Assembly: GCF_026552795.1 (NCBI RefSeq)
Contig: NZ_JANFPI010000004.1
Span: 62,001 to 126,000 of the forward strand
Direction: 5' to 3'
Source: Ectorhizobium quercum
GTDB taxonomy: Bacteria > Pseudomonadota > Alphaproteobacteria > Rhizobiales > Rhizobiaceae
DNA length: 64,000 nt
The notes below the pieces were generated by a model. It did no database searches, had not been told where the DNA came from, and saw nothing but the letters and a program-made list of their open reading frames with translations. Position numbers and translations under genes: made by a program. Shown here piece by piece: positions 5,888 through 30,228 of the stretch (position 1 is its first letter; the number at the start of each line of letters is the position of its first letter).

Positions 5888-7624
5888 TCAGGCTTGCCGC
5901 AGCGTCCGGGTCGCCTCCGGATCGACGCCGTGGTCCGCCGTGAGGGCGACCCCGAACAGCCGGGCGGCCTCCTCCGGGGAATAGCGCCCGAGGCGCACGT
6001 CCTCGGCCACGGCCTCCGGCGCGCGGGTCATGGGATCGCCATAGCCGCCGCCGCCGGGCGTGCCGACGCGCACGCGGTCGCCGGGCTTGAGCGGAATGTC
6101 CTGCGCCTTCGAGAGATGTTCGGGCGTGATCGCCTCTCCGTCCTTCCAGATGGTGACGGAATTGGGCCTGCCGGCCTTGCCGCCGAGCGCGCCGGGTGGG
6201 CCGAAGCGGCCGTGGTCCATCACGAAGCTTGCCGTCGCCTGTCCCCGCCGCAGTTCGATCTCGTAGTCGAGCCCGAAGCCGCCGCGGTGGCGGCCCGCAC
6301 CGCCCGAACCCTCGCGCAGCGCGTAGCGGTGATAGAGGACCGGGAATTGCTGTTCCATGATCTCGACGGGCGGGGCCTTGGAAATGCCGATGGTCGAGCA
6401 GCCGTTCGCCAGCCCGTCATTGTCGATATTGCCGCCATAGCCGCCGCCGGAAATCTGGTACATGACGTAGCCGCGCCCGAGTTCGGGGTCGGTGCCGCCC
6501 AGCGCGAAATTGCCGGAACTGCCGGCGGGGGCTGCGGTGACGCGGTCCGGCAGGGCCTCGACCAGCGCGAGGAACACCGCCTCGGCGATCCGCTGGCTGA
6601 CTTCCGCCGCGCAGCCGGAGACCGGGCGCGGATAATGAGCGTCGAGGAAGGTGCCTTCCGGGCGCTTCACCAGCAGCGGCTCGAAGGCGCCGGCCGAGAT
6701 CGGCACGTCCGGGAAGATATGGCGCATGGCGAGGTAGACGGAGGAGAGCGTGGTGGCGAGCACCGAGTTCATCGGGCCGAGGCAGGGCTTCGACGAGCCG
6801 GTGAAGTCGAATTCGAGCGTGTCGCCCTTCGCCGTGATCGCCAGGCGGATTTCCAGCGGCTCGTTGACCACGCCGTCGCTGTCGATATGGGCGACGGAGC
6901 GGTAGACGCCTTCCGGGATGAGGCGGATGCAGGCCCGCATCTGCTCCGCCGCGCGGGTGCGCAGTTCCCCGATCGCCTGCCTGACGGTCTCGTCGCCGTA
7001 GCGGTCGAGAATGCGGCCGAGCCGTTCCGCGCCGACCAGAAGGGCGGCGGCCTGCGCCTTCACGTCGCCGATGCGCTGCTCGGAAACGCGGATGTTGGAA
7101 CGGATGATGGCATAGATCTCCTCGTCCAGCTTGCCCTCCTTGAACAGCCGCACGGGCGGCAGCCGCAGGCCCTCCTGCTCGACGGAGGTGGCCGAGGCGG
7201 AAAAGCCGCCGGGCACCGCGCCGCCGGTATCCGGCCAGTGGCCGGTGTTGGAAAGCCAGCAGAAGATCTCGCCGTCGCGGTAGAAGGGCATCGCGAAGCG
7301 CACGTCCATCAGGTGCGTGCCGCCGAGATAGGGGTCGTTGACGATGTAGATGTCGCCCGGCACCGGGGCGGCGGCCCGTCCGTCGCGGATCATCTCGATC
7401 AGCGTGCGGGTGGAATATTGCATCGTGCCGACGAAGACGGGCAGGCCGCCCGCGCCCTGCGCGATCAGCGCGCCGTCTTCCGCCGAATAGATGCCGTCCG
7501 AACGGTCGTTGGCCTCGGCGATGACCGGCGAGAAGGCCGCGCGCGAGAAGGTGAGGTCCATCTCGTCGCAGACCTGTTGCAGGCCGGACTGGATGACGCT
7601 GAGCGTGATCGGGTCGATGCTCAT
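5888..7624 (-). CDS. Hydantoinase B/oxoprolinase family subunit
   Basis: Subunit of an ATP-dependent cyclic-amide hydrolase of the HyuA/HyuB and 5-oxoprolinase family (PF02538). It has 578 residues, the usual length. Seen near the N-terminus: LQQVCDEMDLTFSRAAFSPVIAEANDRSDGIYS and the NDPYLGGTH motif typical of HyuB; glycine-rich C-terminal DRVRVGTPGGGGYGDP is also characteristic. Its ATG overlaps the hyuA stop (shared ATGA at 7621-7624), so the two are coupled. In this island I infer that HyuAB opens the lactam ring left after pyridine-ring reduction; a true hydantoinase role cannot be excluded. Confidence 0.9.
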   Translation of the reverse strand: MSIDPITLSVIQSGLQQVCDEMDLTFSRAAFSPVIAEANDRSDGIYSAEDGALIAQGAGGLPVFVGTMQYSTRTLIEMIRDGRAAAPVPGDIYIVNDPYLGGTHLMDVRFAMPFYRDGEIFCWLSNTGHWPDTGGAVPGGFSASATSVEQEGLRLPPVRLFKEGKLDEEIYAIIRSNIRVSEQRIGDVKAQAAALLVGAERLGRILDRYGDETVRQAIGELRTRAAEQMRACIRLIPEGVYRSVAHIDSDGVVNEPLEIRLAITAKGDTLEFDFTGSSKPCLGPMNSVLATTLSSVYLAMRHIFPDVPISAGAFEPLLVKRPEGTFLDAHYPRPVSGCAAEVSQRIAEAVFLALVEALPDRVTAAPAGSSGNFALGGTDPELGRGYVMYQISGGGYGGNIDNDGLANGCSTIGISKAPPVEIMEQQFPVLYHRYALREGSGGAGRHRGGFGLDYEIELRRGQATASFVMDHGRFGPPGALGGKAGRPNSVTIWKDGEAITPEHLSKAQDIPLKPGDRVRVGTPGGGGYGDPMTRAPEAVAEDVRLGRYSPEEAARLFGVALTADHGVDPEATRTLRQA

Positions 7625-9717
7625 CGGTCTTCTCCCACGGTGATGATGATGTTGCCGTCGCGGTCCTGTACTGCCCGGTCGCCCGGCTCGATGACAATGG
7701 TCGTGTCCATCTGCTCGACGATGGCCGGCCCCTCGATGACGGCGTCGGCGGGCAGGTGGTCGCGCCAGTAGACCGGCGTTTCGACAGGCTTCCCGAACCA
7801 GACGCGGCGGGTGCCGGTCTGCGCCTCGGCTAGCGTCGCCTTGCGGCCGGCCGGGTCGATGAGAATGGAAAGGTCGATTTCCGCCCGCCGCCCGATGATC
7901 GAGGTGTTGACGTTGACGAGGTTCGCCCGGACCTCGGGCAGGTCGACGTGGAAGCGCTGGAAATAGGCGGCCTCGAACCGGCTTTGAAGCTCCTCGCGGC
8001 TTGGCACCGGCCCGTCGAGCGGCACGCGCAGCAGATGGGTCTGGCCGATGAACTGCATGTCGACCGAATGGATTTCGCGGATTTCGCGGATCGCCACGGC
8101 CTCCTTGTCGATCAGCCGGCGCCCCTGTTCCGACTGTTTCGCGAAAAGCCCATGCACGGCCTCCATGTCGGCGGCTTGCAGGGGCCGGTTCACGGTGTTG
8201 ACGAAATCGTGGCGCAGATCGGCGACGACGCAGCCGAGCGCGTTGGTGATACCCGGTCGCGACGGGGCGAGCACTCTCGGAATGCCGAGTTCGCGGGCAA
8301 TCGCCGTCGCATGCAGCGGCCCGGCGCCGCCGAAGGCGAACAGCGCGAAGTCGCGCGGGTCCTCGCCGAGGCTGACGGACACCATGCGCACCGCGTCCGC
8401 CATGCGGGTGTTGGCGACCTTCAGCACGGCTGCGGCGGCCTGCACCGCGTCGAGCCCGAGCGGCCGCCCGAGCTTTTCCGCGAAGACGGCGGCGATCCGG
8501 TCGAGCGAGGGGCCGCCCGGCACCGAATTCAGCCGTCCGGGATCGAGGCGTCCGAGCAGCATGTTGGCGTCGGAGATGGTCGGCTCGGTGCCGCCCTTGC
8601 CGTAGCAGATCGGGCCGGGGTCGGCGCCGGCGCTGTCCGGGCCGATCTGGAGCAGGCCGGCGGCATTGATGCGGGCGATGGAGCCGCCGCCCGCGCCGAC
8701 GGTGCGCACGTCGACCATCGGAACGTGGATCGGCATGGCATATTCGACCTCGATCTCGTTGGAGACCGCCGGTTCGGCGTTGCGGATCAGCGCCACGTCG
8801 GTCGAGGTGCCGCCCATGTCGTAGGTGATGAGATCGGGAATGTTCGCCCGCCGCCCGGTATAGGCCGCGGCCATGACGCCCGAAGCGGGGCCGGACATCA
8901 CGGTCTTGGCAGCTTCCTCGGCCACGTGGCGGGCCGAGACCATGCCGCCGTTGCCGTTCATGACGAGCACCTCGTGGGCATAGCCGCGCGCGGCAAGCTG
9001 GTCGGCGAGGCGCTCGACATAGCGGCGCAGCAGGGGCTGCACCGAGGCGTTGACGGCCGCCGTCACGCCGCGTTCGAATTCGCGGCTTTCCGAAAGCAGC
9101 GCGTGGCCGAGCGTGATGTTGCCGTTCGGCCAGACCTCGGCGGCGATCTCGCCGGCGCGCCGTTCATGCGCCGGATTGGCATAGGCGTGCAGGAAGTGGA
9201 TGACGACCGCCTCGCAGTCCTTTTCGGCCAGATATTGCAGCGCCGCGCGCAGCGCCTGCTCGTCGAGCGGCACGAGTTCCCGCCCCGAAGCGTCCATCCG
9301 TTCGGGAACCTCCACCCGGAGATCGCGCGGCACGATGGGCCGGAAGACGCCCTTCATGCCATAGGCCTGCGGGCGGGTGCGGCGGCCGAGTTCCAGCACG
9401 TCGCGGAAGCCTTGCGTGGTGATGAAGCCGGTGCGGCACAGGTTGCGTTCCAGAACGGCGTTGGTCGTGGTCGTCGTGCCGTGGACGATCAGGTCGAGCG
9501 CGGCGATATCGGCCTCGGCCGCGTCGAGCGCGTTGAGAACGCCCGCCGCCTGGTTGTCGAGCGTGGTCGGCGTCTTGGCGAGGCGCACCGTGCCTTTCGC
9601 GGCATCGAACAGCACGAGATCGGTAAACGTGCCGCCGACATCGATGCCCGCGACCTGGGATTGGGTGTCCGGCGGACAGAGTCCGCCCTTCGGTTCGCTG
9701 CTTGAAGACTGAGACAC
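7621..9717 (-). CDS. Hydantoinase A/oxoprolinase family subunit
   Basis: ATP-binding subunit partner of HyuB. It has 698 residues. The actin-like phosphate-binding motif GIDVGGTFTDLVLFD lies near residue 25, followed by HGTTTTTNAVLER and a second ATPase phosphate loop region YDMGGTSTDVAL; the C-terminal region has the VEGPAIVEQMDTTIVI-like ending seen in HyuA (here IEGPAIVEQMDTTIV). The start is a GTG at 9717 with AGGA seven bases upstream. It is the first gene of a two-gene operon that begins 17 bases downstream of operator 9734-9751. Family members cleave hydantoins, 5-oxoproline or related lactams with ATP; the cognate substrate here is inferred from context. Confidence 0.92.
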   Translation of the reverse strand: MSQSSSSEPKGGLCPPDTQSQVAGIDVGGTFTDLVLFDAAKGTVRLAKTPTTLDNQAAGVLNALDAAEADIAALDLIVHGTTTTTNAVLERNLCRTGFITTQGFRDVLELGRRTRPQAYGMKGVFRPIVPRDLRVEVPERMDASGRELVPLDEQALRAALQYLAEKDCEAVVIHFLHAYANPAHERRAGEIAAEVWPNGNITLGHALLSESREFERGVTAAVNASVQPLLRRYVERLADQLAARGYAHEVLVMNGNGGMVSARHVAEEAAKTVMSGPASGVMAAAYTGRRANIPDLITYDMGGTSTDVALIRNAEPAVSNEIEVEYAMPIHVPMVDVRTVGAGGGSIARINAAGLLQIGPDSAGADPGPICYGKGGTEPTISDANMLLGRLDPGRLNSVPGGPSLDRIAAVFAEKLGRPLGLDAVQAAAAVLKVANTRMADAVRMVSVSLGEDPRDFALFAFGGAGPLHATAIARELGIPRVLAPSRPGITNALGCVVADLRHDFVNTVNRPLQAADMEAVHGLFAKQSEQGRRLIDKEAVAIREIREIHSVDMQFIGQTHLLRVPLDGPVPSREELQSRFEAAYFQRFHVDLPEVRANLVNVNTSIIGRRAEIDLSILIDPAGRKATLAEAQTGTRRVWFGKPVETPVYWRDHLPADAVIEGPAIVEQMDTTIVIEPGDRAVQDRDGNIIITVGEDR

Positions 9718-9733: not shown

Positions 9734-9751
9734 TTGTTAGTATACGAACAA
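9734..9751. promoter_or_regulatory. MarR-type operator palindrome, site a (hyuAB / xdhC)
   Basis: TTGTTAGTATACGAACAA is an 18-bp palindrome with 8 of 9 half-site matches, centred on GTA-TAC. It lies in the divergent gap between hyuA (minus) and xdhC (plus), so it can serve both promoters. It belongs to a seven-site set sharing TTnG-N4-CnAA. Confidence 0.7.
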
Positions 9752-9812: not shown

Positions 9813-10883
9813 ATGAGCGGCGAAAGGATGGTCGGCGTGGCGGAGATGATGCCAGAAAGCGGATTCCGGCCGCAGACGGATGCGCTTTCGGTGGCGGCCC
9901 GCTGGGCGGCGCAGGGGCGCCGTCTGGCGCTCGCCACGGTCATCGAGACCTGGGGGTCGGCGCCGCGCCCGGCGGGAAGCCACATGGTGGTGGATGCGGA
10001 CGGAAATTTCGAGGGATCGGTCTCGGGCGGCTGCGTCGAGGGCGAGGTGATCGCGCAGGCGGTCGACGCCATTACGGGCGACCGTGCCCTGATGCTGGAA
10101 TTCGGCGTGGAGGACGAGACGGCCTGGCGGGCGGGTCTTGCCTGCGGCGGGCGGATCCGGGTCCGGCTGGAGCGGCCGGCCTTCGATCTTTCGGCGCTTG
10201 AGGCGGCGCGCCGCGACCGCCGGGCGGTCGTCGTCGCAACCGCCCTCGAAGACGGTCAGGCGCGCCTCCTGCCGCTGGCGGAGGCCGCCGCGATGGTTTC
10301 TCCCGAGACGGCGGAGGCGCTCTGCCGGTTCGGAAAAGCGGTTCTGGCCGAGACGGCGGACGGCCGCGCCCTGTTCCTCAACCCCTATCTGCCGGCGCCG
10401 GAAATCGTGGTGATCGGCGCGGTGCAGATTGCCCAGTCGCTCGCCGCGCTGGCGGGCGTTGCGGGCTACGACCTGCGGATCGTCGATCCCCGTTCCGGTT
10501 TCGCGGCGCCGGAGCGTTTTCCCGGAATCGCGCTGGAAACCGGCTGGCCGGAAGAGGTTTTCGCCGCGCGTCCGGCCGGTGCCTGCGATGCGCTGGTGGC
10601 GCTTTCCCACGATCCGCGCATCGACGACGACGCGCTGGTTGCGGCGCTGGGGGCCGGCTGCTTCTATGTCGGCGCGCTTGGCAGCCGCAAAACGCATGCG
10701 AAGCGGCTGGAGCGCCTGAAGGCCGCCGGGCTCGACGAGGCAGTGCTTTCGCGCATCGCCGCACCCGTCGGCCTCGATATCGGGGCCGTCACGCCCGCCG
10801 AGATCGCGCTCGCCATCCTTGCGGAAATCGTCTGCGCCCGCCGCAAGGGCGCGGTTCCGCCCCGCAGGACGGCGAAGGCATGA
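9813..10883 (+). CDS. xdhC: XdhC/CoxI-family Mo-cofactor maturation factor
   Basis: Chaperone that prepares (sulfurates, stabilises) molybdenum cofactor for insertion into xanthine-oxidase-family enzymes, here the NicAB-type hydroxylase downstream. It has 356 residues: N-terminal XdhC/CoxI domain (LALATVIETWGSAPRPAGSHMVV, SVSGGCVEGEV, GLACGGRIRVRLE) and a C-terminal Rossmann-like domain (PEIVVIGAVQIAQSLAALA, then GALGSRKTHAKRLERL, IAAPVGLDIGAVTPAEIALAILAEIV). The first ATG (9813) is taken; ATGs at 9828, 9846 and 9849 are possible. It overlaps the next gene by four bases (ATGA) and is divergent from hyuA around operator site a. Confidence 0.9.
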   Translation: MSGERMVGVAEMMPESGFRPQTDALSVAARWAAQGRRLALATVIETWGSAPRPAGSHMVVDADGNFEGSVSGGCVEGEVIAQAVDAITGDRALMLEFGVEDETAWRAGLACGGRIRVRLERPAFDLSALEAARRDRRAVVVATALEDGQARLLPLAEAAAMVSPETAEALCRFGKAVLAETADGRALFLNPYLPAPEIVVIGAVQIAQSLAALAGVAGYDLRIVDPRSGFAAPERFPGIALETGWPEEVFAARPAGACDALVALSHDPRIDDDALVAALGAGCFYVGALGSRKTHAKRLERLKAAGLDEAVLSRIAAPVGLDIGAVTPAEIALAILAEIVCARRKGAVPPRRTAKA

Positions 10884-11482
10884 GCGGTGTTGCGGCCATC
10901 GTCCTGGCGGCGGGAACCGCGAGCCGCATGGGCGGCCGCCACAAGCTGCTGGCGGAATTCGGCGGGGAGCCGCAGGCGCGCCGCGCCGCCCGCGCTGCGC
11001 TCGATGCCGGCGCAAGGCCGGTCGTCGTCGTCACCGGCCATCGCCATGCCGAGATCGCGGCCTGTCTCGACGGCCTTTCCGTTTCCGTCGCCCGCAACCC
11101 GGATTTTGCCGCCGGCATGGCCGGTTCGTTGAAGGTCGGGCTCGCCGCGCTGCCGGGAGAGGCGGTTTCCGGCGTTCTGGTCGTTCTCGCCGACATGCCG
11201 CTCGTCACCGCGGCGCATATGGCGGCGCTGGTCGCCGCCTTCGAAGCCGCTGAGGGTCGGGCAGTCGTCCGCGCGACGGCCGGCGGCGTCGCCGGCAATC
11301 CTGTGGTCCTGCCGGCCGCGCTCTTTCCCGCGCTCTCGTCGCTTCGGGGCGACCGCGGCGCGCGCGAGGCGATCCGGCTGAGCGGCTTGCCGGTGGTGTC
11401 GGTGGAGATCGGCGCGGCGGCGCTGGCCGATGCCGACACGCCGGAGGCGGTCGAGACGCTCGGCGGCGTATTGCGCGGCTGA
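10880..11482 (+). CDS. MobA/MocA-like molybdenum cofactor nucleotidyltransferase
   Basis: Probably attaches a nucleotide (CMP in the MocA branch) to molybdopterin, giving the dinucleotide cofactor used by xanthine-oxidase-family enzymes. It has 200 residues. The N-terminal nucleotide-binding signature VLAAGTASRMGGRHKLL and the metal-binding VVLADMPLV motif are clear; GNPVVLPAALF and GDRGAREAI follow, as in MocA proteins. Coupled to xdhC by a four-base overlap and placed just before nicAB, which supports a dedicated maturation role. GMP (MobA) versus CMP (MocA) specificity is inferred from the client family, not read from residues. Confidence 0.85.
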   Translation: MSGVAAIVLAAGTASRMGGRHKLLAEFGGEPQARRAARAALDAGARPVVVVTGHRHAEIAACLDGLSVSVARNPDFAAGMAGSLKVGLAALPGEAVSGVLVVLADMPLVTAAHMAALVAAFEAAEGRAVVRATAGGVAGNPVVLPAALFPALSSLRGDRGAREAIRLSGLPVVSVEIGAAALADADTPEAVETLGGVLRG

Positions 11483-11504
11483 GCCTGCGACGGCCCGGCA
11501 AATT

Positions 11505-11522
11505 TCGTTTGCATGCCAACGA
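11505..11522. promoter_or_regulatory. MarR-type operator palindrome, site b (nicAB)
   Basis: TCGTTTGCATGCCAACGA, with 8 of 9 half-site matches, centred on GCATGC instead of GTATAC. It lies 22 bases past the mocA-like stop and about 140 bases before the nicA start, so nicAB probably has its own promoter and a leader. Confidence 0.65.
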
Positions 11523-11664
11523 TTATCTTCTATTCTGCCCGGACAGAGGGAACATAAGAACGGGCGGAAAACATGCTCGGCATTTGCGACAAGACGGCGC
11601 CCCGTCCGGGGTGGTCCGGCGTGGCGAACCGCTGCGGATATCGCCGGTCCCGGAAGGGCGGCCG

Positions 11665-12156
11665 ATGACGGTGCGCGCCGTGACGCTTCACGTCAATGGC
11701 GAGACCCGGACCTTCGACATCCGGCCGGAAACGCCGCTGCTCTATATCCTGCGCAACGATTTCGGCCTCAACGGCCCCAAATACGGCTGCGGCCTCGGCG
11801 AATGCGGCGCCTGCGCCGTGCTGGTGGATGGGCGGGCGGTGCGCTCCTGCGTCCTGAAGGCCGGTGCGGCGGAAGGCCGGCGCGTCGTCACGCTCGAAGG
11901 GCTCGGCACGCCGGAGGCGCCGCATCCCGTGCAGGCGGCGTTCATCGAAAGCCAGGCGGCGCAGTGCGGCTATTGCATGAACGGCATGATCATCGCCGCC
12001 GCCGGCCTGCTGAACCGCGATCCGCATCCGGACGAAGCGGCGATCCGCAAGGCGCTCAGCCACCATCTCTGTCGCTGCGGCACGCATATGGAAATTCTCG
12101 CCGCCGTGCGCCGTGCCGCCGACGCCGGCGAAGGAGGCGGCCATGATGCCGGCTGA
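11665..12156 (+). CDS. nicA: (2Fe-2S) subunit of NicAB-type molybdenum hydroxylase
   Basis: Small electron-transfer subunit of a Mo hydroxylase, probably hydroxylating nicotinate at C6. The 163-residue protein has both expected clusters: plant-type ligands Cys42, Cys47, Cys50 and Cys62 (GCGLGECGACAVLVDG) and the C-terminal set Cys101, Cys104, Cys136 and Cys138 (CGYCMNGM, CRCGTH). Size and layout match NicA of Pseudomonas putida and IorA (isoquinoline oxidoreductase). I start at ATG 11665 with GGAAGGG six bases upstream; an upstream extension to 11509 would cross the operator and add no conserved sequence. It overlaps nicB by 14 bases. Nicotinate specificity is inferred from the fused-cytochrome partner and the 6-hydroxynicotinate reductase homologue at 28.6-30.1 kb. 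Confidence 0.88.
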   Translation: MTVRAVTLHVNGETRTFDIRPETPLLYILRNDFGLNGPKYGCGLGECGACAVLVDGRAVRSCVLKAGAAEGRRVVTLEGLGTPEAPHPVQAAFIESQAAQCGYCMNGMIIAAAGLLNRDPHPDEAAIRKALSHHLCRCGTHMEILAAVRRAADAGEGGGHDAG

Positions 12157-15100
12157 TCCGGGCGGCCATCGCGAAACGCCGCGCATCGACTATCTGGCGG
12201 AGGGGGACATCCTGCTGGTGATCCGGCCGGGCACGGCCAACGACCCCGAAATCTATCTGGCGATCCACGGCGACGGGCGGGTGAACGCCTTCAACGGCCA
12301 TGTCGACCTCGGCACCGGCATCCGCACGGCGCTGGCGCAGATCGTCGCCGAGGAACTGGACATCGCCTTCGAGCGGGTGGCGATGGTGCTGGGCACCACG
12401 ACGGCGGTGCCCAACCAGGGGCCGACCATCGCCAGCGAAACCATCCAGGTGACGGCTGTGCCGCTGCGCAAGGCGGCGGCCACGGCGCGCAGGCATCTTC
12501 TGGCGCTGGCGGCGGAGCGCCACGGCGTCGCCGCCGACACGCTCGCGGTCGAGGACGGCGTGGTCCGTCCGAAGGCAGGCGGCGGCTGGTCGGTCTCCTA
12601 TGGCGAACTCGTCGCCGGCGCGCATGAGCGGATCGAGATCGACCCGGCGGCTGCTGTCAAGGCGACCGGCGACTATCGTATCGTCGGCAAATCGCAGCCG
12701 CGCAACGACATCGCGGCGAAGGCGACGGGGCAATGGACCTATGTTCATGACGTGCGCGTGCCGGACATGCTGCACGGGCGGGTGATCCGCCCGCCGCATG
12801 CGGGTTTCGACCAGGGGCCGCATGTGGGCCACGGCCTTGCCGGCGTCGACGAAAGCTCGGTCGCGGACGTGCCGGGCCTCGTCGCGGTGGTGACGCAGGG
12901 CGATTTCGTCGGCGTCGTGGCGACCCGCGAGGAATATGCCATCGAGGCGGCGGAGAAGCTCAAGGTGATCTGGCGCGCGCCGCCCGCGCTTCCCGATCTC
13001 AACCGGCCGGAGCAGCCGCTGCGCGACAATCCGGCGACCGAGCGGCTGCTGCGCGAACAGGGCGACGTGCGGCGCGGGCTCGAGGGCGCCTCTCCCCGCA
13101 TGGACCGCACCTATGTCTGGCCCTACCAGATGCATGCCTCCATCGGCCCCTCCTGTGCCGTCGCCGACTGGCGGCCCGACCGGCTGGTTGTCTGGTCGGG
13201 CACGCAGAACCCGTTTCCGATGCGCCGCGACCTGGCGCTGCTGATGGACATGCCCGAGGCGGCAATCGTCGTCGAGCGGCTGGAGGCGGCGGGCTGCTAC
13301 GGGCGCAACTGCGCCGACGACGTGACGGCGGACGCGGCGCTGCTGTCGCGCGCCGTGGGCCGGCCGGTGCGCGTGCAATTGACCCGCGAGCAGGAGCACG
13401 GCTGGGAGCCGAAGGGCGCGGGGCAGGTGATCGACGTGCGCGGCGGTCTCGACGGCGAGGGCGGGCCGGCGGCCTACGATTTCGAGACGCGCTATCCCTC
13501 GAACCTCGCGCCGACGCTGGCGCTCGTCCTCACCGGCAAGGTGTCCTCGACGCCCGATGTGGCGCAGATGGGCGACCGCACCGCCATCCCGCCCTATGCC
13601 TTCGGCAACATGCGGGTGGCCGTCCACGACATGCCGCCGATCGCCCGCGCCTCGTGGTTTCGCGGCGTGTCGGCCATGCCGAATTCCTTCGCCCATGAAA
13701 GCTTCATCGACGAACTGGCCTTCGCGGCCGGCGTCGATCCGGTCGAATACCGGCTGCGCTACCTCACAGATCCGCGCGCCGCCGCTCTGGTGCGGGCGGT
13801 GACGGAAAAGGCGGGCTGGACGCCGCGCACCCGGCCGGGCACGGCGGGCCGGGAGGGCGACGTGCTCTACGGGCGCGGCTTTGCCTACGCGCTCTACGTC
13901 CACGGGCCGTTTCCGGGCACGCCGGCGGCGTGGTCGGCCTGGGTCGCCGATGTCGCGGTCAACCGCCTGACCGGCGAGATCGCGGTGACGAAGGTGACGG
14001 TCGGCCAGGACAGCGGCATGATGATCAACCCCGACGGGGTCCGCCACCAGATCCACGGCAATGTCATCCAGTCGGTCAGCCGCACGCTGAAGGAGAAGGT
14101 CGGCTTTTCGCAGACGGCGGTGGAAAGCGTCGAGTGGGGCGGCTATCCGATCATCACCTTTCCGGAGGTGCCGGATATCGACGTGCTCATGCTGCCGCGC
14201 CCCGACGAGGAGCCGCGCGGTGTCGGCGAATCCGCCTCGGTGCCGAGCGCGGCGGCGATCTGCAACGCGGTGTTCGACGCGACCGGCATCCGCTTCCGCG
14301 AACTGCCGCTGACGCCGGACAAGGTTCTGGCGGCGCTGGAGGAGGCCGAGGGGCGCGGCCTGCCGAAGCCGCCGGAAGCGGCCCCGAAGCGCCGCTGGTG
14401 GCGTCTCGGGGCTACGGCGGCGGGGCTCGCGGGGGCCTTTGCGGGCGGCATCGCCCTTTCATCGCCGTGGCGCGCGGCCTATCCGGAGGTGCCGAGGCCA
14501 GACCCCGGCCTTTACAGCGCCGCCACCATCGAGCGCGGGCGTCTGGTCGCGGCGGCGGGCGCCTGCAATGTCTGCCACGAGGGCAGGGACGGCCAGCCCT
14601 TCGCGGGCGGGCGGGCGCTGGAGACGCCGTTCGGCACGGTCTACGCCACCAATATCACGCCCGATGCGGCAACCGGCATCGGCGGCTGGTCCTATCCCGC
14701 CTTCGAACGGGCGATGCGGCAGGGCGTTTCCCGGGACGGGCATCACCTCTATCCGGTCCACCCCTACACATCCTTCAAGGATGCGAGCGAGGCCGATCTT
14801 CAGGCGCTCTACGCCTATCTGATGACGCAGGCGCCGGTCGCCGTGAAAGCGCCGGAGACGAGGCTGTCCTTTCCCTTTTCCATGCGCGGCCTGATGGCGG
14901 GGTGGAACATGCTGTTCCTCGCGCGGCCCGCTCCGGCGGCATCACGTCCCGCCGACCCGGCGGCGGCGCGGCTGGCGCGCGGCGAATATCTGGTCGAAAC
15001 GCTCGGCCACTGTTCCGCCTGCCACAGCGGCCGCAACGCGCTCGGCGCGGAAATCGGCGGCAAGGCGCATCTTTCCGGCGGTTATGCCGATGGCTGGCAT

Positions 15101-15721
15101 GCGCCGGCCCTCGGCGGCGCGGGCGCGGGACCGGCCGGCTGGAGCGAGGCGGCGCTTTACGACTATCTTCGTTCCGGCCACTCCGCCGATCACGGCAGCG
15201 CCGGCGGGCCGATGGCGGCGGTGGTGAAATCGCTGGAACCCTTGCCCGACGAGGATATCCGCGCCATGTCGGCCTATCTCGCAAGCCTCGGCGAAGCCGT
15301 TCCGGCGGAGGAGGCCGCAGCGCGCAAGGCCGCCGCGATCGGAGCGTCGGAAGCGGCGGAGGCTAGGGCAGCGCTGGTTTCCCCGGAAGGCGCGCGGATC
15401 TTCGCCGGCGCCTGCTCGGCCTGCCACAATCCGTCCTCGCCGCTGGCGAGCCTCGCGCTCAACAGCAATCTGCACGGCGCGCATGCCGACAATCTCGTTC
15501 AGGCGATCCTGCACGGCATGGAGGCGCCGTCGACGCTGACCGCCCGCGCGAAGGCCGCCGATCTGGAGGTGATGTCGATGCCGGGTTTCGCCGCCAGCCT
15601 CAGCGACCGCCAGATCGGCGCGCTTACCGATTATCTGCGCGCCCGCTTCGCGCCGGGGGCGGCGCCCTGGCAGGGGGCGGCGGACACCGCCGCCCGGCTG
15701 CGCAAAAGCGCCGGGCATTGA
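12143..15721 (+). CDS. nicB: Mo-cofactor hydroxylase large subunit with C-terminal tri-heme cytochrome c domains (NicB-like)
   Basis: Catalytic subunit of a Mo hydroxylase whose electrons leave through its own c-type hemes to the respiratory chain. It has 1192 residues from ATG 12143 (AAGGAGG upstream at 12131-12137). Residues 1 to ~740 are the molybdopterin-binding part (FNGHVDLGTGIRTALAQIVAEEL, GCYGRNCADDVTADAALLSRA, RGVGESASVPSAAAI). A hydrophobic segment at ~750-772 is a likely membrane anchor, followed by three heme motifs: CNVCH at 808, CSACH at 957 and CSACH at 1091. This architecture matches NicB of P. putida; isoquinoline oxidoreductase IorB lacks the hemes. It ends 9 bases from the convergent livF stop. 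Substrate is inferred. Confidence 0.88.
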   Translation: MMPADPGGHRETPRIDYLAEGDILLVIRPGTANDPEIYLAIHGDGRVNAFNGHVDLGTGIRTALAQIVAEELDIAFERVAMVLGTTTAVPNQGPTIASETIQVTAVPLRKAAATARRHLLALAAERHGVAADTLAVEDGVVRPKAGGGWSVSYGELVAGAHERIEIDPAAAVKATGDYRIVGKSQPRNDIAAKATGQWTYVHDVRVPDMLHGRVIRPPHAGFDQGPHVGHGLAGVDESSVADVPGLVAVVTQGDFVGVVATREEYAIEAAEKLKVIWRAPPALPDLNRPEQPLRDNPATERLLREQGDVRRGLEGASPRMDRTYVWPYQMHASIGPSCAVADWRPDRLVVWSGTQNPFPMRRDLALLMDMPEAAIVVERLEAAGCYGRNCADDVTADAALLSRAVGRPVRVQLTREQEHGWEPKGAGQVIDVRGGLDGEGGPAAYDFETRYPSNLAPTLALVLTGKVSSTPDVAQMGDRTAIPPYAFGNMRVAVHDMPPIARASWFRGVSAMPNSFAHESFIDELAFAAGVDPVEYRLRYLTDPRAAALVRAVTEKAGWTPRTRPGTAGREGDVLYGRGFAYALYVHGPFPGTPAAWSAWVADVAVNRLTGEIAVTKVTVGQDSGMMINPDGVRHQIHGNVIQSVSRTLKEKVGFSQTAVESVEWGGYPIITFPEVPDIDVLMLPRPDEEPRGVGESASVPSAAAICNAVFDATGIRFRELPLTPDKVLAALEEAEGRGLPKPPEAAPKRRWWRLGATAAGLAGAFAGGIALSSPWRAAYPEVPRPDPGLYSAATIERGRLVAAAGACNVCHEGRDGQPFAGGRALETPFGTVYATNITPDAATGIGGWSYPAFERAMRQGVSRDGHHLYPVHPYTSFKDASEADLQALYAYLMTQAPVAVKAPETRLSFPFSMRGLMAGWNMLFLARPAPAASRPADPAAARLARGEYLVETLGHCSACHSGRNALGAEIGGKAHLSGGYADGWHAPALGGAGAGPAGWSEAALYDYLRSGHSADHGSAGGPMAAVVKSLEPLPDEDIRAMSAYLASLGEAVPAEEAAARKAAAIGASEAAEARAALVSPEGARIFAGACSACHNPSSPLASLALNSNLHGAHADNLVQAILHGMEAPSTLTARAKAADLEVMSMPGFAASLSDRQIGALTDYLRARFAPGAAPWQGAADTAARLRKSAGH

Positions 15722-15730
15722 AAAGGGCCG

Positions 15731-16429
15731 TCAGCCGACCCCGACATAGCGGTTGAGCAGCGACGGGTCCTCGCGCAGGGCCTCGACCGGCATGCTCGCC
15801 TTCGACTGGCCGTTTTCCACGAAGCAGACGCGGTCGGCGAGGGAGAGCACCGCGTCGACCCGCTGCTCGACGAGCAGGATGGCCTTGCCGCGCTCGCGCA
15901 GCTTCAGCACCACGTCGCGGATCGTCGCGATCATCGAGGGCATCAGCCCCTCGGTCGGCTCGTCGAGCAGGATGACGGACGGGTCGAGGCAGAGCGCGCG
16001 GGCCGTTGCCAGCATCTGCTGCTCGCCGCCCGAAAGCGTGCCGGAGACCTGATCCATGCGCTCGCGCAGGCGCGGGAAGAGGTCCAGCGCCTCCTCCAGC
16101 ACCCGCCGGTCGGTGTGGCGGGTCATCAGGCCGATCTCGAGGTTCTCGCGCACCGTCATCTCCGCGAACAGGCGGCGGCCCTGCGGCACGTAGCCGATGC
16201 CGCATTTCGGCACCTCGTGGGCCGGCATGGCGGTGAGTTCGCGCCCGTCGAGGGTGATCGAGCCGGAGCGGGCCCGCAGCAGCCCCATGATCGCCTTGAG
16301 CGTCGTGGTCTTGCCCGCGCCGTTGCGCCCGAGCAGGCAGAGCACCTCGCCGGGGGCGAGCGACAGCGAAAGCCCCTTCAGCGTGCGGCTGTTGCCGTGA
16401 TAGACGTCGAGATCCTTGATGGTCAGCAT
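15731..16429 (-). CDS. Branched-chain-type ABC transporter ATP-binding protein (LivF-like)
   Basis: One of two cytoplasmic ATPases of a HAAT-family importer. It has 232 residues with Walker A GRNGAGKTT, signature LSGGEQQ, Walker B ILLDEP and the TEGL that follows in LivF proteins. It is last in the livK-livH-livM-livG-livF run, two bases after livG. LivF-type transporters carry branched-chain amino acids but also urea, amides and aromatic acids. Because the operon starts beside operator site c, I infer the pathway substrate (nicotinate-like) or a degradation product as cargo. Confidence 0.9.
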   Translation of the reverse strand: MLTIKDLDVYHGNSRTLKGLSLSLAPGEVLCLLGRNGAGKTTTLKAIMGLLRARSGSITLDGRELTAMPAHEVPKCGIGYVPQGRRLFAEMTVRENLEIGLMTRHTDRRVLEEALDLFPRLRERMDQVSGTLSGGEQQMLATARALCLDPSVILLDEPTEGLMPSMIATIRDVVLKLRERGKAILLVEQRVDAVLSLADRVCFVENGQSKASMPVEALREDPSLLNRYVGVG

Positions 16430-16431
16430 GG

Positions 16432-17178
16432 TCAGCCGCCTCCGAGATAGGCTTCCTGGACGGTGCGGTCGGCGCGGATTTCCTCCGGCGTGCCGCTGGT
16501 CAGGATTTCGCCGTGGTTGAGCACGGTGATGCGGTCGGCAAGCTGCATGACGACCGGCATGTTGTGTTCGATGAGAAGCACCGTCGCGGTCTTCGCGATC
16601 TCCTTCACCAGCCCGCAGAAATTCTCGATCTCGCCGTCGGAAAGGCCCTGCGTCGGTTCGTCGAGAATGAGCAGCTTCGGCTTGAGCGCCAGCCCCATCG
16701 CCACTTCCAGCAGGCGCTGGTGGCCGTAGGAGAGGTTGCCGGCGATAACCTCCCGGCGTTCGATCAGGCCGACCCGTTCGAGCGCGGCCAGCGCATCGGC
16801 GTCGAGCGCCTTTCGGTCGATGCGCGAAAGGAAGCCGCGATGGCGCTGGAGCGCGCTTTGCGCGGCGAGCGCGGCATTCTCGTAGACGCTCAGATTGGGA
16901 TAGATGCTAGTGATCTGGAACGTGTAGGCGATGCCCTCGCGCACCCGCCGGAAGGCGGGCTTTGCGGTGATGTCGCTGCCCATGAAGGAGATCGTGCCCG
17001 AAGACACCGGGATGCGGCCGGACAACAGCGAGACGAAGGTGGTCTTGCCGGCGCCGTTCGGCCCGATCAGCGCGCGGATCTCGCCCTGCCGGATCTCGAA
17101 GTCCACGTTCTGCACGGCCTTCAGCCCGCCGAAATGGCGGCTGAGGCCCTTCGTTTCGAGGATCGTCACGGCAGCCAT
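16432..17178 (-). CDS. Branched-chain-type ABC transporter ATP-binding protein (LivG-like)
   Basis: Second ATPase of the importer, 248 residues. Seen: LSRHFGGLKAVQNVDFEI at the N-terminus, Walker A GPNGAGKTT, the LivG-type FQITSIYPNLSVYENAALA, signature LSYGHQRLLEVAMGLA and Walker B ILDEPTQGL. I place the start at ATG 17178; the longer frame upstream is not LivG-like and lies over livM in another frame. It overlaps livM by 13 bases, consistent with one transcript. Confidence 0.9.
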   Translation of the reverse strand: MAAVTILETKGLSRHFGGLKAVQNVDFEIRQGEIRALIGPNGAGKTTFVSLLSGRIPVSSGTISFMGSDITAKPAFRRVREGIAYTFQITSIYPNLSVYENAALAAQSALQRHRGFLSRIDRKALDADALAALERVGLIERREVIAGNLSYGHQRLLEVAMGLALKPKLLILDEPTQGLSDGEIENFCGLVKEIAKTATVLLIEHNMPVVMQLADRITVLNHGEILTSGTPEEIRADRTVQEAYLGGG

Positions 17179-18128
17179 GTCATCCACCTTTCGCGGATCG
17201 TGCCGAGAATCCCCTTGGGGAAGAACAGCACGAGAAGGACCAGCGCCAGCCCCGTGACCAGCATGTAGGCCGGGGTATATTCGCTGGCGATGTCGATCAT
17301 GTAGAACATCGCGGCGGTGCCGAGCAGCGGTCCGAGGATCGTGCCCGCGCCGCCGAGCAGGGTGAAGAGCAGCGCCTCGATGGAATACTGGATGGAGGCG
17401 AAGGACGACCCGACATAGGCGAACAGCAGCGCATAGGCGGCACCCGCCATTGCCGAGATCGTGCCCGAGACGGTGAGCGCCATGAGCTTCAGCCGGAAGG
17501 TGTCGTAGCCGAGCATCAGCGTACGCGGCTCGTTCTCGCGCACGGCGATCAGCGCCCGGCCGGCCGGGCCGCGCACGAGCGCCAGCGTCACGAGAAGCGT
17601 CAGCACCATCAGCGCGAAGGCGATGTTGTAGCGCACCGTGGCGTCGGTCAGGTCGAAGACGGTGCCGAACAGCTCGAAGCTGCGGGCGCGCTGCGGCAGC
17701 ATCAGCCCTTCCTCGCCGCGCGTCCATTCGGAGAAGTACATGCTGGCCATGTAGGCGACCTGCGAGAACATCATGGTCACGATCATGAAGGACACGCCGG
17801 TGGTGCGCAGCGAGATCAGCCCGATGGCGAAGGAGACGACCGCACCAGTGGCGATGCCGGCCAGAAAGGCGGCCGGCACGCTCCATTCGAGGTGGAAGAC
17901 GGCAAGGCCCGCGCCGTAGAGGCCGCTTGCGAAGAACAGCGCATGGCCGAGGCTGAGCAGCCCGGTATAGCCGAACAGCAGGTTGTAGCCCATCGCGAAG
18001 ATCGCCAGCACCATGATGCGGGTCACGGTCAGCTCGTGATACTCGGGCAGGACGAATTGCAGCGCGAAGAAGACGAGGATGACGGCCGCATGCAGGAGGG
18101 CCGATTTGGTGAAGCCGGCATTCTTCAT
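17166..18128 (-). CDS. Branched-chain-type ABC transporter permease (LivM-like)
   Basis: Inner-membrane permease of the importer, 320 residues from ATG 18128. Multiple membrane segments (ALLHAAVILVFFALQFVLP, VLAIFAMGYNLLFGYTGLLSLGHALFF) and the LivM hallmark GYTGLLSLGHALFF are present. A C-terminal EAA-like loop (TLLGGAGTILGPLLGTA) is the ATPase contact site. It overlaps livH by four bases and livG by 13. Confidence 0.9.
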   Translation of the reverse strand: MKNAGFTKSALLHAAVILVFFALQFVLPEYHELTVTRIMVLAIFAMGYNLLFGYTGLLSLGHALFFASGLYGAGLAVFHLEWSVPAAFLAGIATGAVVSFAIGLISLRTTGVSFMIVTMMFSQVAYMASMYFSEWTRGEEGLMLPQRARSFELFGTVFDLTDATVRYNIAFALMVLTLLVTLALVRGPAGRALIAVRENEPRTLMLGYDTFRLKLMALTVSGTISAMAGAAYALLFAYVGSSFASIQYSIEALLFTLLGGAGTILGPLLGTAAMFYMIDIASEYTPAYMLVTGLALVLLVLFFPKGILGTIRERWMTWLP

Positions 18129-19006
18129 CGCGCTTTTGCTCCGAACAGCCCTTCCGGCTTGAAGATCAGCACCAGCGCGACCAGAAGCGTGGAGAGCATC
18201 TTGGCAAGCGTCGGCGAGAAGAAGACGGAGATGATGCCGTCGCTGAGCCCGATCACCAGCGCCGCCGCCACGGTGCCCCGGATGGAGCCGAGGCCGCCGA
18301 TGATGACGACGATGAAGGACATCAGCAGGGGATCGAGGCCCATCAGGTAATGCGCCTGGCGGATCGGCACGATCAGCACGGCGGCGAGTGCGGCCAGCAT
18401 CGCGCCCGCGGCGAAGACGAAGCCGTAGACCCGCCCGATGGGAATGCCGAAGGCCTGCGCGGTCTCGCTGTCGTATTGCGTGGCGCGCATGACGAGGCCG
18501 ATGCGGGTGCGCGTCAGGACGAACCACACGACGCCGAGGATCGCGAGCGCAGCGGCGATGACGAAGAAATTATAGGCTGAATAGCCGAACCACGGAAGCT
18601 GGATGCGATAGTAGAAGGGCGGCGCGACGGATTGCGCATCCGGCCCGAAGGTGATGAGCACGGTCTGCTGGATGATGTAGAGCATGCCGATGGTCGCGAC
18701 GATGGTCGCCTCGGGATTGTAGGAAAGCCGTTGCAGCACCAGCCGCTCGCCGGCGAAGGCGACGGCGCCGACCACCAGCGGGCTGACGATCAGCGCCGCG
18801 AAGAAGCCGACCGCCGGATGGAAGCCGAGCAGCGAGGCGACCCACCAGGCGACGACCGCGCCGAGCATGTGGAACTCGCCGTGGGCGACGTTGACGACAC
18901 GCATCACGCCGAAGACCAGCGACAGGCCGAGCGCGGTCAGCGTCAGCACTGCTGCCTGCAACAGGCCTTCCAGCGTCGCCAGAAAAAGGAATGGACCGAA
19001 TGCCAC
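18125..19006 (-). CDS. Branched-chain-type ABC transporter permease (LivH-like)
   Basis: Partner permease, 293 residues if started at GTG 19006, which has GAGG eight bases upstream and gives the usual LivH length and N-terminus (GPFLFLATLEGLLQAAVLTLTALGLSLVFGVMRVVNVAHGEFHMLG contains the LivH motif VNVAHGEF). Starts further upstream add 24 charged residues not expected in the family. The EAA-like loop VVIIGGLGSIRGTVAAAL is present near the C-terminus. A strong hairpin separates it from livK. Confidence 0.88.
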   Translation of the reverse strand: MAFGPFLFLATLEGLLQAAVLTLTALGLSLVFGVMRVVNVAHGEFHMLGAVVAWWVASLLGFHPAVGFFAALIVSPLVVGAVAFAGERLVLQRLSYNPEATIVATIGMLYIIQQTVLITFGPDAQSVAPPFYYRIQLPWFGYSAYNFFVIAAALAILGVVWFVLTRTRIGLVMRATQYDSETAQAFGIPIGRVYGFVFAAGAMLAALAAVLIVPIRQAHYLMGLDPLLMSFIVVIIGGLGSIRGTVAAALVIGLSDGIISVFFSPTLAKMLSTLLVALVLIFKPEGLFGAKAR

Positions 19007-19126
19007 GTCATGAACCTCGTCATTTGTCCGGTTGTCCCATCCGGCAAGCGCGTGCCGGACGAAAGCGCTGCGCCGCATGGGCGCGGTTCCGGAAATATCG
19101 GGGAAAGAGCAGGGCTTGAGGCATTG

Positions 19127-19162: not shown

Positions 19163-20470
19163 TCAGAGCGCCATCTGGGTGTAGTCGGCGGTCACTTCGT
19201 AGGCGCCGTCCTCGATGGAGGTCTTGTGGACCACGTTGAGCCTGCCGTTTTCCACCTTCGAGATGAACTGGTGGCCGTAACACTGGTGGTTCTTGCCGTT
19301 GAATATCTTGTCGCCCTGCGGATATTCGCGGCTTTCCGGCATGGTCTCGATGGCCTCCATCGCCTCGATGAAGGCGGCCTTGTCCTGCGGGCCCTGATAG
19401 TTGGCCGCTTCCATAGCCTGCTTGATGAAGAACAGCGATTCCCAGCAGCCGAACATGTGGGCATAGGTGGAGATGTCGCGCGGGTCCGCCGTGCTGGCGC
19501 CGTTGTCATCGACGCCGACGGCGGCACGGTAGAACTTGTCCCACTCGCTCTGGTTCTCCTGGGCGTAACGCGGCATGCCTTCCCAGAAATAGGTGCCTTC
19601 CAGGAAGGAAAGCTGCGGCGTGGCGAGGTCGACCGCCTCGATGCTGTCGATGAAGCCGAAGATTTCCGGGCGGTTGGAACCGTAGAACTGGCCGAGTTCC
19701 GTCGCGAAGGTCAGCACGGAGGGGCCGATCATGACGTGGTAGAGCACGTCCGTGTCGCTGGGGATGCGTGGGAAATAGCGCGTGAAGGACTTTTCCGTGG
19801 GCGGAATGGGGATGAGTTCGGCGATCTCGCCGCCCTGCGCCTTGATCGCGGCCGAAAAATAGTCGCGATGATCGTGGCCGAAGGCGTAGTCGGGAAAGAT
19901 CATCGTGACCTTCTTGCCCAGGTTCTGGGAAACCCAGGGCGCCATCGCCGTCACCTGGCTGCGCACATCGGTGATGCAGGGCTGGAAACAGTAGCGGTTG
20001 AGCGAGCCGGACGGTATGTGGGTGCCTTCCGACACGGCGATATAGGGCATCTTCAGTTCACCGGCCCGCGGGGCGGAGCCGATGACGACATGCGAGAACA
20101 GCGCGCCGTAGACCGCGTCGACCCTGTGCTGGGTCGCGAATTTCTCGACCACCTCGGCGCCGCGCTTCACGTCGGTGCCGTCATCCTCGATGACGAGCTC
20201 GAGCGGCCGGCCGTTGATGCCGCCGTCCTCATTGATGACCTTGACGGCGGCAAGCGCCGTGCGCTCGTACCAGCGGCCGTAGGAGGCGCCGATGCCGGTG
20301 CGGTGCAATTGCATGCCGATGCGGATCGGGGCGGAAGTCTGCGCCTGGCTGTAGCGCACGAAGCCGGGTGCGACGCCGGCGGCAAGCCCGGCGCCGGCGG
20401 CAGCGCCAATTCCCAGGAGGGTGGAGCGGCGCGTGATCGCATTTCTGGACTGGATGATCTTGTCTGGCAT
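19163..20470 (-). CDS. ABC transporter substrate-binding protein (LivK/FmdD-type), Tat-exported
   Basis: Periplasmic binding protein of the importer, 435 residues. The N-terminus (SRNAITRRSTLLGIGAAAGAGLAAGVAPGFV) has a twin-arginine pair, long hydrophobic stretch and cleavage region near SQAQT, so Tat export is likely. The mature part (IRIGMQLHRTGIGASYGRWYERTALAAVKVINEDGGINGRPLELVIEDDGTD) is a type I periplasmic binding fold of the amide/urea-binding branch. It heads the operon; AGGGGA precedes the ATG, and operator site c is 56 bases upstream. The ligand is unknown; a pathway substrate is inferred from co-regulation. Confidence 0.88.
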   Translation of the reverse strand: MPDKIIQSRNAITRRSTLLGIGAAAGAGLAAGVAPGFVRYSQAQTSAPIRIGMQLHRTGIGASYGRWYERTALAAVKVINEDGGINGRPLELVIEDDGTDVKRGAEVVEKFATQHRVDAVYGALFSHVVIGSAPRAGELKMPYIAVSEGTHIPSGSLNRYCFQPCITDVRSQVTAMAPWVSQNLGKKVTMIFPDYAFGHDHRDYFSAAIKAQGGEIAELIPIPPTEKSFTRYFPRIPSDTDVLYHVMIGPSVLTFATELGQFYGSNRPEIFGFIDSIEAVDLATPQLSFLEGTYFWEGMPRYAQENQSEWDKFYRAAVGVDDNGASTADPRDISTYAHMFGCWESLFFIKQAMEAANYQGPQDKAAFIEAMEAIETMPESREYPQGDKIFNGKNHQCYGHQFISKVENGRLNVVHKTSIEDGAYEVTADYTQMAL

Positions 20471-20525: not shown

Positions 20526-20543
20526 TCGTTCGTCTACTAACAA
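20526..20543. promoter_or_regulatory. MarR-type operator palindrome, site c (liv operon)
   Basis: TCGTTCGTCTACTAACAA, 6 of 9 half-site matches, keeps the invariant TTnG-N4-CnAA core. It lies 56 bases upstream of livK in the divergent gap to the membrane-protein gene. Confidence 0.6.
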
Positions 20544-20699: not shown

Positions 20700-20717
20700 A
20701 TGTTTGTATACCAACGA
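20700..20717. promoter_or_regulatory. MarR-type operator palindrome, site d (membrane protein gene)
   Basis: ATGTTTGTATACCAACGA has the GTATAC centre and the TTnG-N4-CnAA core. It lies 25 bases upstream of the ATG at 20742, which argues that the true start of that gene is downstream of this site and not at 20658. Confidence 0.6.
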
Positions 20718-26514: not shown

Positions 26515-27090
26515 TTATTGCGCAGTGCGGGCCTGTTCGACGGTCAGGCCGCCGACCCTCGGCAGCGGCCGCCCGCCGGTGGTGACGGCGACGGCGATGA
26601 CGATTTCGCCGGCGCGCGGCGCATCGTTGAGGCGGATGCGCATTCCGTCGAAATGCGAGCGGACATAGGCGGAATCCTTGTAGCCGAGCGGAATGTCGAC
26701 GATGTCGCCCGGTCCCCCGATGGCCTTGGAGGAGGGGATGATCGCCGCACCGCCGCCCACCGCCACGCGCAGCGGCTTGCCCAGCGCCGGGTGAAGCACG
26801 GCGGCGGCGTGTTCCAGTTCGCCTGCCTCGCCGACCAGCGCGGCCTTGCCGTAGCTTTCGGCCTCAGCGGGTTCGATGCCAAGCGCCTCCATGCATTTGC
26901 GTCCGAGAAGGCCGCCCATCTCCGCGCCGATGTCGATCAGCGGCGAAAGATCGTCGGCATAGGCTCCGGCGAAGGGATTGCGCAGGACCGCGCAGGCCGC
27001 CGCCTTGCGGATCGGCGGGGAAACGGGCCGGCCCATTTCGCTGCGCGTTTCCTCGACGAAGACCGCGATCTTGCGGATATCGGCCGTCAT
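26515..27090 (-). CDS. Amino acid synthesis family protein (PF06684), copy 1
   Basis: Biochemical function unknown. It has 191 residues and is clearly paralogous to the next gene: shared NPFAGAY, ELEHAA/ELEHGA, the P-S-x-K-x-x-GGPG segment, YVRSHFDGMRI and the DAPRAGEIV ending. The family name comes from an old genetic association and should not be read as a mechanism. Its ATG overlaps the stop of copy 2 (27087-27090). Together with copy 2 it probably forms a heteromer. Last gene of the reductase operon, so a step after ring reduction or a regulatory/assembly role is possible. No signal peptide or membrane segment. Confidence 0.82.
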   Translation of the reverse strand: MTADIRKIAVFVEETRSEMGRPVSPPIRKAAACAVLRNPFAGAYADDLSPLIDIGAEMGGLLGRKCMEALGIEPAEAESYGKAALVGEAGELEHAAAVLHPALGKPLRVAVGGGAAIIPSSKAIGGPGDIVDIPLGYKDSAYVRSHFDGMRIRLNDAPRAGEIVIAVAVTTGGRPLPRVGGLTVEQARTAQ

Positions 27091-30210: not shown

Positions 30211-30228
30211 TTGTTAGTGTACAAATGA
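30211..30228. promoter_or_regulatory. MarR-type operator palindrome, site g (hnr operon / marR)
   Basis: TTGTTAGTGTACAAATGA is the weakest palindrome of the set (5 of 9) but keeps TTnG-N4-CnAA. It lies 102 bases upstream of hnr and 144 bases upstream of the divergent marR gene; the 262-base gap holds no other gene. Confidence 0.5.

Follow-up and report, generated by a model that had tools for sequence, protein, structure and literature searches.

In E. barkeri, the ring of 1,4,5,6-tetrahydro-6-oxonicotinate (THON) is opened by an enamidase of the amidohydrolase family, a metal enzyme that needs no ATP and whose product is 2-formylglutarate. Here, we describe a 64,000-nucleotide stretch of the Ectorhizobium quercum genome (contig NZ_JANFPI010000004.1; hereafter the window) in which two adjacent genes, hyuB and hyuA, probably code for an ATP-dependent lactamase that opens the same ring in place of the enamidase. 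Two lactamases of pseudomonads serve as precedents. CapAB of Pseudomonas jessenii needs both ATP and bicarbonate; alanine at CapA D11 or D295 lowers product formation, and alanine at CapB D41, H99, D102 (printed D101 in places) or H124 abolishes product (PMC8453981). OplAB of Pseudomonas putida, a two-part oxoprolinase from this family that also depends on ATP and that we liken to HyuAB by description rather than by sequence, uses ATP to hydrolyse the six-membered lactam delta-valerolactam (PMC11033972). With respect to the pathway, Bradyrhizobiaceae SG-6C carries a homologue 42% identical to the E. barkeri 6-hydroxynicotinate reductase, Hnr, in a cluster that is assigned to the conversion of 6-hydroxynicotinate to THON and said to hold the first three steps; like the SG-6C/Azorhizobium cluster, the window has hnr, a molybdenum (Mo) hydroxylase and an ABC importer (PMC3511419). 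The two genes of interest are:

hyuB, 5888..7624, minus strand: 578 amino acids, metal-site (hydrolase) subunit of the predicted ATP-dependent lactamase pair
hyuA, 7621..9717 (annotated start), minus strand: 698 amino acids, predicted ATP-binding subunit

Both are open reading frames with a coding-like GC content at third codon positions, they overlap by 4 nt and the best operator copy of the window lies upstream of hyuA; the coupled pair proposed in a first-pass annotation of this DNA is genuine. Two homologous subunits encoded side by side, a trait of the CapAB/OplAB/HyuAB family, are present here. The top NCBIfam models are caprolactamase alpha for HyuA (498 bits) and caprolactamase beta for HyuB (316 bits), both of which miss the equivalog cut-off of 1000 bits for caprolactamase proper. 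The pair resembles CapAB in its best family model, its two subunits, its pair of ATP-site aspartates and its Asp-His-Asp-His metal site (PMC8453981), but differs from it in falling below the equivalog cut-off and in its linkage to hnr. Among PDB structures, HyuA matches N-methylhydantoinase 7hk5 first and 6yra second, and HyuB matches 6yra best; the enamidase structure 2VUN is not among the matches of either protein at E<=1e-10. We take entry 6YRA to be CapAB of P. jessenii, with which its numbering and loop sequence agree.

An alignment read by hand places HyuA D26 and D300 (residues checked) at the ATP-site aspartates D11 and D295 of CapA, and HyuB D40, H104, D107 and H129 at the CapB metal ligands D41, H99, D102 and H124; these four HyuB residues are invariant in 36/36 hnr-type HyuB proteins, window included. 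Also by hand, the vicinal disulfide C410-C411 of CapB corresponds to S410-T411 in the window HyuB, and CapB Leu38, Met339 and Leu415 correspond to Glu37, Ser343 and Ser415. Residues E37, S343, S410, T411 and S415 occur in all 36 hnr-type proteins and K416 in 34 of them. A more polar HyuB pocket would suit a carboxylated substrate, but this is only suggestive because related HyuB proteins, mostly from genomes lacking hnr (nine of ten), share many of those residues (E37 in 10, S343 in 5, S410 in 9, T411 in 6, S415 in 9 and K416 in 9). Among the papers listed by searches of the openly licensed PMC literature, no title or abstract links HyuAB or a hydantoinase with the opening of the nicotinate ring, which is not proof of absence.

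Enamidase and HyuA among genomes with hnr

Two samples of genomes were compared: a class sample of 385 genomes, 68 with hnr, and a sample of 111 genomes from the window's own family, 44 with hnr. The window genome belongs to both, and their union comprises 111 hnr genomes, among which 38 have only enamidase, 71 have only HyuA, none has both and two have neither. In the class sample, where enamidase was recognized at 71% or more identity to P0007 and HyuA of the window clade at 54-100%, the 68 hnr genomes divide into 29 with enamidase only, 37 with HyuA only, none with both and two with neither, the latter being incomplete assemblies (70% and 86% complete); the exclusion has a Fisher probability of 3e-17, uncorrected for kinship. 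In the family sample, enamidase (>=71%) is found in nine hnr genomes, HyuA in 34, both in none and neither in one, G427, which carries a contig-edge HyuA at 69%. The first class searches scored few candidates per genome and were repeated with all candidates scored. On recheck, none of the 37 HyuA genomes of the class had an enamidase relative above 41% identity (three hold distant amidohydrolases at 37-41%), the two genomes with neither enzyme being covered as well, and none of the 38 enamidase genomes had a HyuA above 45%, with three other genomes covered and all candidates scored except in G279 (28/31). For the HyuA genomes of the family, absence of enamidase comes from a search whose candidate counts are given for part of the genomes only. 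Among the 317 class genomes without hnr, enamidase (>=70%) occurs in one, and in the family sample HyuA occurs without an hnr match in one genome, G473, where the contig ends inside or at the UPF0280 gene. An additional enamidase-like clade, at 53-64% identity, comprises genes of G435 (locus L258), G393, G459, G467, G476, G478 and G492, six of these seven genomes having no hnr match; the L258 gene lies with its own pair of AA_synth genes and possibly belongs to a sister pathway.

The named relatives are the best 80 of 587 confirmed hnr loci, of which 43 have enamidase (>=60%) within reach, eight have hyuAB, none has both and 29 have neither in the available stretch, one of these last (L188) carrying a 53% enamidase-like gene. 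The eight hyuAB loci come from Agrobacterium sp. a22-2, Rhizobium sp. CG5, R. rhizogenes OV677, R. setariae, Neorhizobium alkalisoli, Rhizobium sp. SL86, R. halophytocola and a Hyphomicrobiales metagenome-assembled genome; all eight have the order hnr-UPF0280-AAs1-AAs2 followed by hyuA-hyuB on one strand, and their HyuA and HyuB share 82-86% and 85-90% identity, respectively, with the window proteins. Within the same best 80 loci, enamidase is found in 17 of 24 named as Bradyrhizobium and also in Afipia, Xanthobacter, Roseovarius and others, and the Bradyrhizobium, Afipia and Xanthobacter genera differ from the window in that the ring opener, where one lies within reach, is enamidase and none has HyuAB. 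In many relatives, the hnr cluster includes a gene homologous to that of the E. barkeri enamidase 2VUN (for example, L096 with E 1.5e-111).

The window genome, whose assembly is rated 100% complete and 8.85% contaminated, has 28 Amidohydro_1 matches, none of them inside the window, in agreement with the first-pass annotation, which had seen no amidohydrolase-type enamidase there. A dedicated enamidase elsewhere in the regulon, which that annotation had named as evidence to the contrary, was looked for genome-wide and not found: at E<=1e-20, scoring of all 10 candidates revealed no enamidase relative anywhere in the genome, and the best of the 28 loci reaches a phmmer E-value of only 2.5e-4 (14 bits) against an enamidase. 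Two tandem amidohydrolases located 10 kb before the window (C15:50242-52579; L037:6970-9619) were rejected as candidates, being prolidase-like by family model (below cut-off) and not enamidases; the second has 3mkv as its best PDB match. These prolidase-type genes adjoin a transporter gene and, by eye, aminopeptidase and gamma-glutamyltransferase-like genes.

On a tree of Hnr proteins (66 rows, built by a quick method with two fragments dropped), the enamidase/HyuA label changes seven times, and at least five of these changes are forced by starred branches. The window Hnr is one of 20 rows that make up a starred set, and 17 rows of this set are of the enamidase type. There are five independent pairs that contrast in enamidase; on average, HyuA is opposite in 4.9 of them. 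Two relatives from the family show an exchange in place: between fpr, a ferredoxin-NADP reductase-like gene, and AAs2 stands the enamidase gene (ena) in L255 (G395) and hyuB-hyuA in L256 (G468). While ena is on the strand opposite to its neighbours, hyuB-hyuA lie on the same strand as AAs2, AAs1, UPF0280 and hnr; the swap is therefore one of the same place on the opposite strand, not of the same operon slot. An operator with two mismatches is found between fpr and ena in L255, and one with two mismatches lies 59 nt before hyuA in L256.

In the window, hyuA and hnr are 18.9 kb apart; among the HyuA genomes, the two genes are no more than 10 kb apart in 21 of 37 from the class and 15 of 34 from the family. 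A hyuB gene stands beside or near hyuA in 39 of 46 clade loci, with gaps of up to 1.9 kb, and two of the seven clade loci lacking it nearby (L158 and L166) end at a contig edge. On the HyuA tree, the proteins from hnr genomes form one group (98, starred, 50 rows) separate from seven paralogues of the same genome; long branches among the paralogues make the paralogue order unreliable. The row L138, labelled low-identity on this tree, is the HyuA of hnr genome G104.

Operator copies and the MarR regulator

The operator copies and the regulator gene of the window are:

operator TTGTTNGTANACNAACAA, 9734..9751, unstranded: perfect match, between hyuA and xdhC
operator copy, 20526..20543, unstranded: one mismatch, 56 nt before the importer binding-protein gene
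operator copy, 20700..20717, unstranded: two mismatches
operator copy, 30211..30228, unstranded: two mismatches, 102 nt before hnr and 161 nt before marR
marR, 30372..30869, plus strand: MarR regulator, homologue of BpsR

From the first base of the perfect copy, it is 17 nt to the annotated start of hyuA and 79 nt to xdhC. It had been proposed that hyuA and hyuB share the island operator; the sharing holds, in the refined form that separate copies precede hyuA/xdhC, the importer and hnr/marR, rather than a single operator serving one operon. Across the whole genome, at two mismatches or fewer, the sole match beyond the window copies is at C13:244244, and the reversed control pattern also has one match. 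The C13:244244 site, a weak match, was rejected as an enamidase site; the nearby gene is an adenine deaminase. Collectively, the window holds hnr, a Mo hydroxylase, a regulator and a common operator, the combination that defines a THON-type nicotinate regulon.

Relatives were surveyed over 250 nt upstream at three mismatches or fewer, with a reversed-pattern control and the window left out. The operator lies upstream of hyuA in 15/48 cases, of ena in 31/65 and of hnr in 42/145, with no control match for any of the three; for other genes, the counts are 0/48 (hyuB), 0/139 (UPF0280), 2/200 (livF-like) and 0/13 (low-identity hyuA), and the reversed pattern matched at 2/19 importer binding-protein genes and 1/83 AAs1 genes. 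Thus, some genomes have this operator before hyuA and others have it before ena. Among the 15 class hyuA loci far from hnr, seven have an operator site (L145, L147, L150, L151, L153, L154 and L156) and seven follow genes of the importer or of AA_synth that share their strand (L142, L144, L148, L149, L157, L158 and L160); the remaining one, L143, is without upstream sequence and so falls outside the operator count.

The window MarR protein matches PDB entry 2nnn, a regulator without a name, best (3e-38), followed by BpsR 6PCP/6PCO (1e-22). In BpsR, 6-hydroxynicotinate relieves DNA binding (PMC6837509); of the BpsR residues contacting this ligand, Tyr15, Arg26 and His32 are kept in the window protein as Y32, R43 and H49, and His23 is replaced by F40.

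Pathway genes around the pair

The hyuAB genes stand back to back with a nicotinate-dehydrogenase-type Mo hydroxylase and its maturation genes (9813-15721), after which come an ABC importer, two AA_synth genes, a UPF0280 gene, hnr and, in divergent orientation, marR:

XdhC-like maturation factor of the Mo hydroxylase, 9813..10883, plus strand
MocA-like molybdenum cofactor cytidylyltransferase, 10880..11482, plus strand
2Fe-2S subunit of the Mo hydroxylase (nicotinate dehydrogenase type), 11509..12156 (annotated start), plus strand
Mo-binding subunit with a C-terminal cytochrome c domain, 12113..15721, plus strand
LivFMH/Urt-type ABC transporter genes, 15731..19078, minus strand
ABC importer substrate-binding protein, 19163..20470, minus strand
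ferredoxin-NADP reductase-like protein (fpr), 22289..23125, plus strand: adjoins hyuB in L256 and ena in L255
AA_synth (PF06684) protein 2 (AAs2), 26515..27090, minus strand
AA_synth (PF06684) protein 1 (AAs1), 27087..27758, minus strand
UPF0280-type protein, 27661..28602, minus strand: no Pfam match
hnr, 6-hydroxynicotinate reductase orthologue, 28616..30109, minus strand

The family name UPF0280 is the one we presume to apply to the 27661..28602 protein, which is perhaps needed for assembly of Hnr or for its cofactor. The window Hnr is an orthologue of the SG-6C reductase (PMC3511419) and is 72-76% identical to orthologues in the Bradyrhizobium, Afipia and Xanthobacter loci that were compared. 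In loci of these three genera, the 2Fe-2S subunit encoded next to hnr shares 51-66% identity with that of the window; for the Mo-binding subunit, the corresponding value is about 58-60% in most of the Bradyrhizobium and Afipia loci. The type of Mo hydroxylase varies among hnr clusters: the window (11509-15721) and Bradyrhizobium have a two-subunit form fused to cytochrome c, and 34-35 of the first 40 loci listed (L071-L110) have a fused FeS-Mo protein of ~925 amino acids with a separate subunit of 290 amino acids, which by eye looks to be of the FAD type. As for the electrons consumed by Hnr, the fpr product is a possible donor. Additionally, genes resembling, by eye, 2-oxoacid:ferredoxin oxidoreductase and ferredoxin reductase genes directly precede Mo hydroxylase-hnr-UPF0280-hyuAB at L104:1368-5674 and L103:9874-14185, where they are a possible electron source.

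Proposed ring opening by HyuAB and its alternatives

The genomic data strongly support replacement of enamidase by HyuAB. Gene content, mutual exclusion, repeated switching, a shared cluster place, a common operator and conserved catalytic residues are all observed, and the exclusion, switching, place and operator bear out the non-homologous replacement put forward in the first-pass annotation. Judging from sequence, we hold with good confidence that HyuAB belongs with CapAB, OplAB and the hydantoinases as an ATP-dependent lactamase and that it would open THON in place of the ATP-free enamidase, an unrelated amidohydrolase for which we propose the same step and product; THON as the substrate, the use of ATP and the identity of the product are inferred from knowledge of the family. 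By analogy with CapAB, HyuA would spend ATP on activation of the lactam, perhaps by way of carboxyphosphate, and the resulting phospho- or carboxy-lactim would be hydrolysed by HyuB at its Asp-His-Asp-His metal site; tautomerisation of the opened enamine, with loss of ammonium, would then yield 2-formylglutarate.

The substrate of HyuAB could instead be another lactam of the same pathway, reduced further than THON or in a different way, such as saturated 6-oxopiperidine-3-carboxylate; the 2-(aminomethyl)glutarate formed from it would then be deaminated. The ATP-dependent relatives do act on saturated lactams, and a saturated substrate would account for the need for ATP, but the two types of Hnr are interleaved on the tree, with the window Hnr nested among those of the enamidase type, and the Hnr product is therefore probably the same in both. 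We consider this alternative unlikely; the Hnr tree speaks against different products for HyuAB-type and enamidase-type reductases, and no aminotransferase is present among the window island proteins scanned, a weak point given that unlabelled genes of other genomes are unannotated. It is more doubtful still that HyuAB is an ordinary hydantoinase or 5-oxoprolinase merely travelling with nicotinate genes. The family includes both activities and sequence alone does not fix the substrate, yet 109 of the 111 hnr genomes have exactly one of the HyuA and enamidase orthologues, the two share an operator and a cluster place, and the HyuA clade is distinct from the seven paralogues that the same genome encodes.

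Ring opening might also be assigned to the AA_synth pair or the UPF0280 protein, with HyuAB taking a later step, since UPF0280 homologues occur at 63/67 and 76/80 hnr loci and AA_synth at 43/67 and 74/80 (the second set in each case being the best 80 of 587). However, UPF0280 accompanies both enamidase and HyuA types, and AA_synth, present in 29/29 enamidase-type class genomes and missing from 8/37 of the HyuA type, does not trade places with enamidase and may have a role linked to the enamidase route; AA_synth is an unlikely ring opener, and the proposal as a whole is very improbable. A carboxylase resembling acetone or acetophenone carboxylase and acting on a pathway intermediate would belong to the same superfamily, but it would not replace a hydrolase, and the ApcA, ApcC and ApcD models score 168, 288 and 131 bits against cut-offs of 1250, 1500 and 1500, all widely missed, whereas the caprolactamase models score far higher; this possibility is scarcely credible.

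Several points weigh against replacement of enamidase by a THON-opening HyuAB. The Fisher tests on exclusion ignore kinship, and a sign test with only five independent pairs cannot reach 0.05. At 33 of 48 loci, hyuA is without an operator of its own at three mismatches or fewer. One genome, G435, has HyuA and, in another cluster that lacks hnr (L258), an enamidase-like gene at 64%, and HyuA of the window clade (50-63%) occurs in 10 of the 317 class genomes without an hnr match. The HyuA group on the tree likewise includes five rows from genomes without an hnr match, four from family f116 and the fifth from G127 (74% complete). Downstream of hyuA, no hyuB was found within ~19 kb or more in five of the 37 HyuA genomes of the class, hyuB not having been sought genome-wide: G280 (L142:8979-11024), G066 (L130), G028 (L141), G358 (L101 with L267) and G093 (L093 with L269). 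In these genomes, hyuB may be located elsewhere. Finally, the enamidase step needs no ATP, and any benefit of spending it would be unexplained.

In G280, two other genes come after hyuA. The f116 hyuA genes lie beside a gene that by eye is CoxL-like, without the operator; because these four members adjoin a different Mo enzyme, the HyuA clade is not bound to THON and has at least one other use, perhaps in the pathway of another N-heterocycle or lactam. At L146, L152, L155 and L159 (G114, G217, G383 and G307, respectively), HyuAB pairs of the clade from genomes with no hnr match adjoin a CoxL-like Mo enzyme and lack the operator, in some cases with genes that by eye are BKACE-like.

These data are best read as a known family taking on a new role, in a variant of a pathway already described. 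We are reasonably confident that this B3 step of the Alphaproteobacteria has been swapped at least five times between two unrelated enzymes, an amidohydrolase that needs no ATP and a lactamase of two subunits that burns it, with the same operator before either, with the same cluster place taken in at least one case and with no sampled genome having both orthologues, and that HyuAB represents a new activity, that of an ATP-dependent THON lactamase, which would be the commoner solution in the samples (71 versus 38 genomes). If true, a function would be given to a clade of hydantoinase/oxoprolinase-kind proteins, which would also supply a candidate lactamase for carboxylated six-membered lactams. 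The nicotinate pathway would be completed in many rhizobia and other Alphaproteobacteria, and its ring-opening step would offer a clean natural case of repeated non-homologous replacement between enzymes of differing energy cost.

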